DNA of 64,000 nucleotides from Thermoanaerobacterales bacterium (GCA_012840135.1 DUMA01000022.1:1-64000), one strand, 5' to 3'. Positions 53,038 through 64,000 are shown, counted from the first letter of the stretch. Numbers and translations: made by a program. The notes: generated by a model not told the origin, from the sequence alone.

Positions 53038-53064
53038 GAAGGATTTTCAATAAAAATGTAGAAT
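53038..53064 (+). promoter_or_regulatory. Sigma-H-like promoter for the mutase-associated locus
   Basis: GAAGGATTT (53038-53046), 11 nt, GTAGAAT (53058-53064). Confidence 0.55.
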
Positions 53065-53082
53065 ACTTATTATATAGAATAG

Positions 53083-53097
53083 CTCATCATTGATGAG
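53083..53097. repeat. Palindrome CTCATC-ATT-GATGAG in leader
   Basis: Perfect 6-bp arms adjacent to the SD; same arms occur at 59449-59463. Confidence 0.8.
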
Positions 53098-53107
53098 GAG
53101 GTATATA

Positions 53108-53530
53108 ATGCCGGATCCATACAAAACGGGAATGTTTAAGACAAATCCTTATGCCAAAAAGAAACCTTTAAAAGGTAATCTGGTAGTGGTTCTGGATGGA
53201 AAATATGAAGAACGCGGATTGAAGCTTATTGTTCAGCCTTCCCGGTGTCTTTTAAAAAATGAAGTCCATGAAATGATAATAACCGACGAAATAAAAAGCC
53301 CTGGGGATGTAGTAAACAGAATTGCCTATCTTGGCTTTTTTGTTGTGAAGGAAAGCACCGTCATTGTCATCGGGGACGAGGTAAAAGTTGCCGGGAAAGT
53401 AGTTGGAAAGATAGCAGGTTTTGATGAAACTCATATGCCTAATCATTACAATATAGTGATATACAGCGATGAGCGCATATCAGGAAATGAAAGAAACCTG
53501 GAACTGGATGATGAGGTAGAAATCGGATAA
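53108..53530 (+). CDS. Conserved hypothetical protein, locus-associated
   Basis: GAGGAGG SD, ATG 53108; MPDPYKTGMFKTNPYAKKKPLKGNLVVVLDGKYEERGLKLIVQPSRC. Confidence 0.7.
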   Translation: MPDPYKTGMFKTNPYAKKKPLKGNLVVVLDGKYEERGLKLIVQPSRCLLKNEVHEMIITDEIKSPGDVVNRIAYLGFFVVKESTVIVIGDEVKVAGKVVGKIAGFDETHMPNHYNIVIYSDERISGNERNLELDDEVEIG

Positions 53531-53597
53531 AAAGAATAAAAAAGTTTATTATGAAAAAAATAGATTTAGAAATACCCTTTGAAGGGAGGTGTATATA

Positions 53598-54056
53598 ATG
53601 TCATTCGAAAAAAAGCTTCAGGAGTTAGGCATCACATTGCCTGAGCCACCAAAACCCGTTGCAGCATATGTTCCCGGAGTAAAGGTGGACAAGTATATCT
53701 ATACTGCAGGCCAGATTCCCTTCGTAAATGGTGAATTGAAGTATAAAGGGAAAGCTGGTAAAGATGTTACGGTTGAAGACGCTTATGAAGCAGCCAGAAT
53801 TTGTGCATTAAACTGTCTGAGCATCGTTAAATCTCTGGCCGGAAGTCTTGACAACGTTGAAAAAATTGTCAAAGTTGTAGGATTTGTAAACAGTGCCGAT
53901 GGTTTCAATCAACAACCAAAAGTCATTAATGGTGCTTCAGAACTATTAGGTCAGATTTTTGGCGATGCGGGTGCCCATGCACGTTCTGCAGTAGGTGTAA
54001 GCGAGCTGCCTATGGATGCTACGTGCGAGGTTGAGCTAATAGTAAAACTAAAATAG
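53598..54056 (+). CDS. RidA/YjgF family enamine/imine deaminase
   Basis: VDKYIYTAGQIPFVNGELKYKGKAGKDVTVEDAYEAARICALNCLSIVKSLAGSLDNVEKIVKVVGFVNS. Confidence 0.93.
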   Translation: MSFEKKLQELGITLPEPPKPVAAYVPGVKVDKYIYTAGQIPFVNGELKYKGKAGKDVTVEDAYEAARICALNCLSIVKSLAGSLDNVEKIVKVVGFVNSADGFNQQPKVINGASELLGQIFGDAGAHARSAVGVSELPMDATCEVELIVKLK

Positions 54057-61541: not shown

Positions 61542-61557
61542 CTTTTGGAGGACCAAC

Positions 61558-62631
61558 ATGGCTTTTATAATAGGGGCAGCAGGAACTGCAAAAAATACCG
61601 GTAAAACCACAACTACTTCAGCCATTTTAGATGAGTTATATAGGGAAAACATTTTAATAGGTTTAACCAGCATAGGCTATGACGGTGAGGAAGTTGACAA
61701 TATTACCGGTTTGCCCAAACCGCGTCTTTTTTTAAAAAAAGGGTCAATTGTTGCAACAGCAGAAAAATGTCTTGCTGCCGGTAGTGCTGAATATAAGATA
61801 ATGGAATCAACGGATATTGTAACACCTCTGGGCAAGATAATGATTGTTAAAATTACTGAAGATGGGTTAGTAGTTATAGCAGGTCCCAATAAGAGCAGCG
61901 AACTGAGATGCATTTTAAATATGATGACTCAAAACTGGAAATGCGAGTTTATTATGGTAGACGGGGCTTTAAACCGAATAGCTCCCATGGTGGAAACCGA
62001 TGGTATAATTCTTGCAACAGGTGCTGCGAGAAATACCGATATCGATGAACTGGTTAGTGAAACCTGGGCTTACTGTGAATTATTCAACTTACCGGAAGTA
62101 AGCGCAGAAGAAAAAAATATAATTCATGAACAAACCAAAATTTGCCTGATTAAGCATGATGATATTATAAAAACCCTTGATTATGGCTCATTAATAGATA
62201 AAAAAAGCGTTGACAGTATTAAAGAACATATAAAAAAAATAACCACTATATATATCCCGGCGCTGCTTTCGGAAAACATGTTAAGAGAATTAAATCAAAC
62301 AATAGGCAGTCTGTGGGATGGTAAAATACTCATAGTAAGAGATCCCATAAAAATTGCAGCTGGCGGTAACCCCCAGAATGTAATATGTGAAATAAGTACT
62401 TTATTAAATTCAGGCGGCAAAATTAAGGTGTTTAAAAAGATGCCAATTTTAGCCATTAGCGTCAATCCTTTTTATCCACTTTATAGATATGAGAATAATA
62501 ACTACGAAGCAGGTTTTGTAGATGCAGATGAACTTTTTTCAAAGATGAAAAAAGCAGTCCCAGTACCGGTAGTGGATGTAAAAAGGCAAGGGGTAAATGT
62601 GTTGATATCATTGATAAAGACGCATTTTTAG
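61558..62631 (+). CDS. P-loop protein, possibly KamB-like aminomutase reactivase subunit
   Basis: IIGAAGTAKNTGKTTTTSAILDELY; TSIGYDGEEVDNITGLPKPRLFLKKGSIVATAEKCL; directly downstream of the mutase. Confidence 0.55.
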   Translation: MAFIIGAAGTAKNTGKTTTTSAILDELYRENILIGLTSIGYDGEEVDNITGLPKPRLFLKKGSIVATAEKCLAAGSAEYKIMESTDIVTPLGKIMIVKITEDGLVVIAGPNKSSELRCILNMMTQNWKCEFIMVDGALNRIAPMVETDGIILATGAARNTDIDELVSETWAYCELFNLPEVSAEEKNIIHEQTKICLIKHDDIIKTLDYGSLIDKKSVDSIKEHIKKITTIYIPALLSENMLRELNQTIGSLWDGKILIVRDPIKIAAGGNPQNVICEISTLLNSGGKIKVFKKMPILAISVNPFYPLYRYENNNYEAGFVDADELFSKMKKAVPVPVVDVKRQGVNVLISLIKTHF

Positions 62632-62647
62632 TAAAGAGGTGTCCTTT

Positions 62648-63328
62648 ATGGAAACGTTGGCTATAGTCGGAACAGGGAGGATGGGTTCTCTGCTGGCCAG
62701 AAAACTGTCAGGAAAATATAAACTAATACTTATTGATAAAGATATACGGCAGTGCGGACAGCTGGCCCGTGAGTTAGGAGTGGAAGGTATCATAGAATAC
62801 TCTATTCTTGCCAAAACTGATTTTATTATCTTAGCCTTACCCGCTTCAATTATCCCAGAGGCAATAAATGAAATAAAACCTTTTTTAAAACAGGAACATG
62901 TTTTAATAAATGTTTCCACAGACACCGGTTTAGAGGAATTTAATACTGTAAAGAACTTCTGCAAGCCTGTTTCAGCAAAAATTATCGGCCATGCACTTCA
63001 GATAGGGTTTGGGGAGCTCCCGCTAATAATAATAGATGGAGAAGATGAAAGAGCCCGCAATAAGACTGCTGAGATCTTCAGCAATATAGGGGCGGTCAAA
63101 TTCGGCTCTGAAAAAATTGTTGCGGATATTAATCATATTGCAAGTGAAGAAGGTATTAAGGCGGCATATAACATTCAAAATAAACTAAAGCAGATCGGTA
63201 TACCGGAAGAATATATCAGTTTTGCCATAAGGAACGTAGCGTGCGGTACCATGAACGCGTATTCTATAGGAGATGCAGGGCCTTTTGCACGGGAAATAAT
63301 AAAGAAGTTAAATCAAAAAAATGACTGA
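62648..63328 (+). CDS. NAD(P)-binding oxidoreductase (ProC / F420-dependent-oxidoreductase-like)
   Basis: METLAIVGTGRMGSLLARKLSGKYKLILIDKD Rossmann motif. Confidence 0.72.
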   Translation: METLAIVGTGRMGSLLARKLSGKYKLILIDKDIRQCGQLARELGVEGIIEYSILAKTDFIILALPASIIPEAINEIKPFLKQEHVLINVSTDTGLEEFNTVKNFCKPVSAKIIGHALQIGFGELPLIIIDGEDERARNKTAEIFSNIGAVKFGSEKIVADINHIASEEGIKAAYNIQNKLKQIGIPEEYISFAIRNVACGTMNAYSIGDAGPFAREIIKKLNQKND

Positions 63329-63432
63329 TTCCGCTCTGGAATCAGTTTTTTATTCACCTATTTTTTCACCTATTTTACCTCTTTTGAATAGATTATTAAT
63401 GAACTTTATCTTTTTCAAAAGGGGTGAATGAA

Positions 63433-64000
63433 ATGGCTTTAAATTATTATTGTATAGATGCTGGTTCTCAGTACTGTCCGTGCCATCTGGCAAAGACTGA
63501 AAATTGTCTTATTTGCTCGATGATGCAGGGGAAAGAAATTTGCGACTGCAGATGGCAGGGAATTTGCGTATATCAAGAGTATATGTGGGCAGATGGTAAA
63601 ATAGAAGAAAGAAAAACAATACCGGCTTCTGTTGTCGAAAAGAATTTTTTAACAGACAAACTTGTTATCATTAAGATCTTTATCCCATTGGATTCTCTTG
63701 TCAGAGAATTAAATCAACCTGGAACTTTTGTCTTTTTAAGGTCCGAAGGTTCTCCAGAATACTATGATGTCCCGTTATGCGTTATGGATATAGATGAGTC
63801 AAATAAAATTTTGAGTTTTGCAGTAAATATAGTTGGTCCCAAGACAAAAGCCATAATCATGTCGGATAGCATGGTTTTAATGCGTGGTCCATACTGGAAT
63901 GGTCTTTTAGGTTTAAAACATATTAAGTCGAGCTACAGCAAACACTGGCTTATAATAGGAAGGGGAATAGGTCAGGCCTCCATAATCTCTGTGGTAAAGA
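63433..64000 (+). CDS. Partial (3' truncated by window): Cys-rich FAD/NAD-binding electron-transfer protein, dihydroorotate-dehydrogenase-B/PyrK-like
   Basis: ATG 63433 after AAAGGGGTGA; open to window end; MALNYYCIDAGSQYCPCHLAKTENCLICSMMQGKEICDCRWQGICVYQEY...; absent from ORF track because no stop is in the window. Confidence 0.6.
   Translation, partial: MALNYYCIDAGSQYCPCHLAKTENCLICSMMQGKEICDCRWQGICVYQEYMWADGKIEERKTIPASVVEKNFLTDKLVIIKIFIPLDSLVRELNQPGTFVFLRSEGSPEYYDVPLCVMDIDESNKILSFAVNIVGPKTKAIIMSDSMVLMRGPYWNGLLGLKHIKSSYSKHWLIIGRGIGQASIISVVK

Follow-up and report, generated by a model that had tools for sequence, protein, structure and literature searches.

What reaction would be carried out by a run of co-directional genes that combines a B12-dependent mutase with a pyridoxal 5′-phosphate (PLP) enzyme and the deaminase RidA? 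Such a run occupies the end of a 64,000-nucleotide stretch of DNA from Thermoanaerobacterales bacterium (GCA_012840135.1 DUMA01000022.1:1-64000), which is called the window here. A first-pass annotation had described it as a candidate amino-acid or amine degradation locus, in which B12-dependent migration of an amino group or carbon skeleton would be followed by PLP chemistry and oxidation, and had proposed comparison of gene neighbourhoods. From position 53,108 to the window end, every gene named there was found on the + strand, co-directional and tightly spaced, and the families were confirmed by profile searches against Pfam and NCBIfam.

The mutase is probably new as a permuted branch of the B12 aminomutase scaffold that lacks the PLP site, inside an undescribed conserved module. 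With the known PLP site gone, and the cobalamin motif and a key glutamate kept, sequence and model together indicate that it is probably an adenosylcobalamin (AdoCbl) mutase without PLP binding of the known kind. It probably catalyses a different reaction from the lysine and ornithine aminomutases, because the vitamin B6 site is seemingly lost.

Fold, domain order and cofactor site of the mutase

The mutase gene (59,709-61,541, + strand) encodes 610 residues and matches PF02310 over its cut-off; its B12 domain is N-terminal and precedes a barrel like that of the lysine aminomutase alpha subunit. In an AlphaFold2 model (predicted local distance difference test score, pLDDT, 83.5), the B12 domain covers approximately residues 1-140 and the barrel approximately residues 158-610. 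When Pfam, NCBIfam and the PDB were searched by sequence, the B12 domain was matched but the barrel was not, so a fold search was needed. The best barrel match is the alpha subunit of lysine 5,6-aminomutase (8t0v_A; Z 31.7, 392 aligned residues, 3.6 Å), followed by glutamate mutase (Z 25.2) and ornithine aminomutase (Z 24.4), and Foldseek returns the same best match. In profile-profile comparison, the barrel matches KamD of lysine 5,6-aminomutase with an expectation (E) value of 4.6e-8, and the B12 domain matches KamE with 2.8e-21; the B12 domain also finds the KamE and OraE B12 domains in sequence searches. The mutase has no match to PF06368, the glutamate mutase epsilon family.

The small subunit of 83 residues (59,456-59,707, + strand) is probably a free-standing dimerisation domain of the ornithine aminomutase (OAM) type. 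It matches the N-terminal dimer domain of KamE with E 3.7e-5 and the dimer domain of OraE, at the equivalent place, with 0.003, while unrelated controls give 0.04 or worse; its match to Pfam OAM_dimer (0.022) is below cut-off. Homologous barrel, B12 and dimer domains of the aminomutase family are all found, the dimer domain being the weakest link. The order is barrel-dimer-B12 in OraE, whereas here it is dimer, then B12-barrel, divided over two genes. We infer from the sequence comparisons a circular permutation of the lysine/ornithine aminomutase order. Apparent fusions of small subunit and mutase in two genomes (G338, G141) were rejected, as the long frames are read-through ahead of genes that are in fact separate. 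The match between KamD and OraE (1e-29) is far better than that of either to the new family, which places the new family outside both.

In lysine 5,6-aminomutase, the residues that hold PLP are Lys144 in the B12 domain and, in the barrel, Arg184, Gly187-Gln188-Ser189, Ser238, Tyr263 and Arg268, and Lys629 of ornithine aminomutase binds PLP as Lys144 does (PMC3958899). The KamD and KamE copies that we collected keep these PLP-site residues without exception, and the OraE copies likewise all keep the Lys and the R-x-x-GQS motif. In the new family, on the other hand, the PLP Lys column (K144beta) holds Leu or Met in 37/37 members, and the G187-Q188-S189 loop is deleted. R184 is replaced by D298, S238 by R346 and R268 by Gly or Ala at position 376, each in 38/38 members. 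The sole listed PLP-site residue retained is Y263 (here Y371), whose side chain in lysine aminomutase stacks on PLP.

The cobalamin motif D19-x-H22-x-x-G25 (DxHxxG, base-off/His-on) is present in 37/37 members, and E520 in 38/38. The latter corresponds to Glu338 of ornithine aminomutase, a residue recognised by its PDEG context that helps to cleave the Co-C bond (PMC4413051). A new set of residues, D298, E306, W340, Q341, R343, H345 and R346, is invariant in the mutase family, as is K366. Since the known PLP site is replaced throughout the family, the PLP chemistry most likely resides in the separate fold-type-I enzyme of the locus. Of the sequence of events first suggested, the B12 mutase and the PLP/RidA unit are supported, but amino-group migration of the known B12/PLP type is not, the PLP Lys and phosphate residues being replaced across the 38 members.

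Conservation and co-occurrence of the module

A scan of species genomes found 37 further loci, with mutases 57-87% identical. Their hosts are Tepidanaerobacteraceae, Thermosediminibacter, Fervidicola, Heliobacterium, Heliorestis, Desulfotomaculum, Halobacteroidaceae, other clostridia and a termite-gut Treponema. The core module consists of the small subunit, the mutase, the divergent fold-type-I PLP enzyme, a DUF6917 protein, RidA, a flavin adenine dinucleotide (FAD) protein with four cysteines, a KamB-type reactivase and an FCD-domain regulator. With the window included, the small subunit is present in 36 of the 38 loci, the PLP enzyme in 34, KamB in 33, DUF6917 and the FCD regulator in 28 each, the FAD protein in 24 and RidA in 21, all of which are lower bounds with several loci on short contigs. 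The permease, found in 9/38 and in 9 loci of the first set, is accessory. The gene list as first drawn up holds as a unit for most of its genes, but the nicotinamide adenine dinucleotide (phosphate), or NAD(P), oxidoreductase (8/38) and the Cys-rich protein (7 loci of one set, elsewhere divergent and in opposite orientation) are not core.

In nearly all loci the small-subunit gene immediately precedes that of the mutase. Otherwise gene order varies by lineage and the flanking genes are unrelated housekeeping genes, so that the linkage reflects more than common ancestry of one region. The recurrence of these genes in 37 further loci, in several gene orders and with different flanks, goes far beyond what chance would give. 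The picture is similar in a second set, which comprises 28 loci drawn in part from the same organisms.

Co-occurrence was counted in one fixed set from the phylum, 398 genomes in all. Of these, 39 have the mutase, 40 have DUF6917 and 41 have the PLP enzyme, with 39 genomes common to all three. Fisher p is ~1e-52 per gene pair and ~1e-40 at genus level, values that are optimistic because the genomes are related. The mutase is found in 19 families in this sample (anaerobic Firmicutes), and also in a termite-gut Treponema. In one genome (G396), DUF6917 and the PLP enzyme are on a different contig from the mutase, which makes the link among the three independent of adjacency. Three genomes (G071, G110, G318) have two copies each of mutase, PLP enzyme and DUF6917, in partly split loci in G318. 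Split modules (L083, L081, L123, L156) include RidA-PLP-FAD-KamB apart from the mutase (L083), and, within one genome, mutase and PLP/DUF6917 paralogs placed at different loci.

That the genes form one functional unit, as the first-pass annotation had held, is supported by both the varied loci and the 398 genomes. No match to a described pathway was found, and the reported lack of ornithine and lysine pathway partners in the locus was supported.

Partner genes in the window

All partner genes are on the + strand. The first one (53,108-53,530), initially listed as a conserved hypothetical, is present and was identified as DUF6917 (Pfam PF21891, 167 bits), a core partner. On a plasmid of Streptomyces sp. 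NBC_00490 (L168 11983-14310), DUF6917 forms a fusion with a DXS-like thiamine-diphosphate enzyme, and it adjoins acetolactate-synthase-like enzymes elsewhere (Thermomicrobium roseum, L167 11986-14233; L152, L158). By analogy, these thiamine-diphosphate enzyme neighbours and fusions suggest, at most, a role near 2-oxo acids or enamines. A literature search of open-licence papers found none on DUF6917 or on the new mutase.

Next are the RidA-family enamine/imine deaminase (~53,589-54,056; PF14588/PF01042) and the PLP enzyme (54,076-55,542), both core, and their pairing in one module agrees with the initial description. The PLP enzyme belongs to a divergent family with weak Aminotran_5, SelA and Cys-Met matches. 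Its AlphaFold2 model (pLDDT 87.5) has fold type I with many tied structural matches at Z ~22, and candidate catalytic residues are the Schiff-base Lys291 (DKA) and Asp265. No known fold-type-I family could be assigned to it, as sequence scores are below every curated cut-off and the structural matches are tied. On a plasmid of Variovorax paradoxus VAI-C (L166 8086-13893), a PLP enzyme 43% identical to it accompanies RidA, a GntR regulator and a taurine/sulfonate-type ATP-binding cassette importer, without the mutase. By analogy, this pair fits a PLP lyase that needs only RidA to complete its reaction. A sulfonate- or taurine-like substrate, considered from this importer, was rejected, because that operon has no mutase gene and importers of this type form a broad class.

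The GidA-like FAD oxidoreductase (55,603-56,886; PF01134, 127 bits) is core in most loci. Its motif C-x6-C-x2-C-x3-C is conserved across loci and is possibly an Fe-S site. The permease (56,976-58,361) belongs to a conserved family without a name (A4) and has no Pfam or NCBIfam profile match. It is followed by the regulator (58,619-59,371), which joins an FCD domain with an RNase R-type winged helix (PF07729 and PF08461), and then by the two mutase genes.

The KamB-type P-loop reactivase (61,558-62,631) scores 255 bits against NF052386, whose cut-off is 210, which agrees with the initial view that a B12 mutase, its small subunit and a KamB-like protein occur together. Above this cut-off as KamB is, the window genome yet has no lysine 5,6-aminomutase alpha subunit; the same search for KamD was positive in 6/7 other genomes. 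KamB must therefore serve another enzyme here, and its NCBIfam name, lysine 5,6-aminomutase reactivase, is likely too specific in genomes without that enzyme.

Two lineage-specific genes end the run, the NAD(P)-binding oxidoreductase (62,639-63,328; PF03807) and the Cys-rich FAD/NAD electron-transfer protein of PRK05802 type (63,424-64,000, cut by the window end; NF004470). In the whole genome (locus L008) the latter is complete at 63,424-64,383 in window numbering. A second GidA-like flavoprotein, a paralog of the 55,603-56,886 gene, follows it at ~64,387-65,709 (L008 12387-13709), so that two paralogous GidA-like flavoproteins flank the mutase genes, one on each side. The window also carries an OLE RNA (18,706-19,323; Rfam RF01071, 546 bits), a large structured RNA of extremophilic Firmicutes.

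Proposed reaction, alternatives and known systems

We consider it rather probable that the locus encodes a metabolic module not yet characterised, at whose centre is a circularly permuted relative of lysine 5,6- and ornithine 4,5-aminomutase, and that it works as follows. What was computed is how the families are related, how the domains are ordered, that the known PLP site is lost, and that the genes are conserved and co-occur; from these results we infer that the mutase is catalytically active and free of PLP, and in which order the steps run. The small subunit, as dimer domain, and the B12-barrel subunit would form an AdoCbl radical isomerase that binds cobalamin via D19-x-H22-x-x-G25. The B12 domain would close over the barrel, and Glu520 would help break the Co-C bond, like Glu338 of ornithine aminomutase. 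The substrate would be a small polar acid, probably an amino acid, held probably by D298, E306, W340, Q341, R343, H345 and R346 and rearranged without the PLP site of known aminomutases. KamB would swap out damaged cofactor. The separate fold-type-I PLP enzyme would then cleave or deaminate the product, releasing an enamine or imine that RidA would hydrolyse, with a 2-oxo acid and ammonia as the result. The FAD/4-Cys protein may cover an associated redox step, and the FCD regulator would control the module.

A third substrate is likely, since one genome (G022) has lysine aminomutase, ornithine aminomutase and the new mutase together. Other substrate clues were sought. An Rfam search of 21 loci gave no match adjoining the module, hence no riboswitch clue; a lysine riboswitch in the window (46,429-46,615) is directly upstream of a lysA-like decarboxylase gene and unconnected to the module. 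Recurrent neighbours gave no clue among the flanking housekeeping genes, which differ by lineage. The further claim of a new AdoCbl mutase class, in which a permuted PLP-free lysine/ornithine aminomutase scaffold performs a radical rearrangement that is absent from the enzyme list and is one step in a new amino-acid pathway, has in our judgement slightly less than an even chance of being right.

Several points weigh against the proposal. The barrel alone matches KamD at only E 8.3e-6 with low-diversity alignments, where unrelated control families give 0.1 or worse, and, taken alone, the sequence matches give weak evidence for a dimer domain in the small subunit. RidA (21/38) and the FAD protein (24/38) are not adjacent everywhere, partly owing to contig ends and split loci. 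The PLP enzyme occurs without detectable mutase in two genomes: in G395 the module is at contig ends and the mutase was not found, and in G082 a lone PLP gene occupies the folC/maf-radC-mreB site where other heliobacteria hold the module. To our knowledge, heliobacteria, although carriers of the module, are not known as amino-acid fermenters, so that a degradation role is not certain. Finally, because the PLP-site loss rests on profile alignments and one predicted fold, PLP could bind the mutase in another way, for which the invariance of K366 leaves room.

The last point leads to a reading that we find unlikely, namely that the enzyme is still a PLP-dependent B12 aminomutase, with PLP bound anew through K366 or another invariant Lys and the amino group migrating. 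Its closest relatives by fold and profile are indeed PLP-dependent aminomutases, and Y371 is kept along with K366. However, every member has lost the GQS loop, the Schiff-base Lys and the two Arg residues that bind the PLP phosphate, and a separate PLP enzyme stands alongside the mutase in nearly every genome. An eliminase of the ethanolamine ammonia-lyase/diol dehydratase type, with a radical 1,2-shift, loss of ammonia or water and RidA taking the enamine, would explain the reactivase (such enzymes suicide-inactivate), RidA and the missing known PLP site, but the fold is a mutase fold and no sequence match to eliminase families was found, making it quite improbable. Leucine or another aliphatic amino acid as a 2,3-aminomutase substrate, speculated upon in the first-pass annotation, gained no positive evidence and is very improbable: its sole support is an orphan B12 mutase in the locus, whereas the invariant R343/H345/R346/D298/E306 suggest a polar, multiply charged substrate, and no branched-chain degradation genes recur beside the module. 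Equally improbable is a non-catalytic sensor or methyl-transfer corrinoid protein. The B12 domain does resemble methyltransferase corrinoid proteins, but the protein also has E520 and a complete barrel whose active-site positions are conserved, and a reactivase accompanies it.

AdoCbl mutases are known for only a small number of reactions, and in the known B12 aminomutases PLP sits in the barrel. If the proposed permuted, PLP-free mutase is real, a relative without the PLP site but with its own PLP enzyme would show this scaffold shifting between PLP-assisted and PLP-free radical chemistry, and an uncharacterised pathway would be opened in many anaerobes.

With lysine 5,6-aminomutase (KamD/KamE), the new mutase shares the barrel fold, a B12 domain of ~36% identity in the structural match, a dimer-domain relative and KamB. 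It differs in its permuted order, in lacking the PLP Lys and PLP-phosphate site, and in a locus without kdd/kce/kal-type partners; KamDE co-exists with it in G022. D-ornithine 4,5-aminomutase (OraS/OraE) has a homologous barrel and B12 domain, and its E338 equivalent is kept here. OraE is, however, one barrel-dimer-B12 chain, its PLP Lys629 and RTxGQS loop are missing here, the new locus has no OraS, and OraE co-exists with the new mutase in several genomes. Glutamate mutase (GlmE/GlmS), the second-best fold match, is a PLP-free AdoCbl mutase, as the new enzyme probably is, with a canonical B12 domain lacking the PLP Lys insertion, but its profile match is short and insignificant (E 0.026), and the new locus has KamB rather than MutL and no adjoining methylaspartase; glutamate mutase (PF06368) was not found in the window genome. 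The partner PLP enzyme has the fold and PLP-Lys region in common with SelA/DgaE and Cys/Met-type PLP enzymes, but differs from them as a family of its own that is tied to the mutase.

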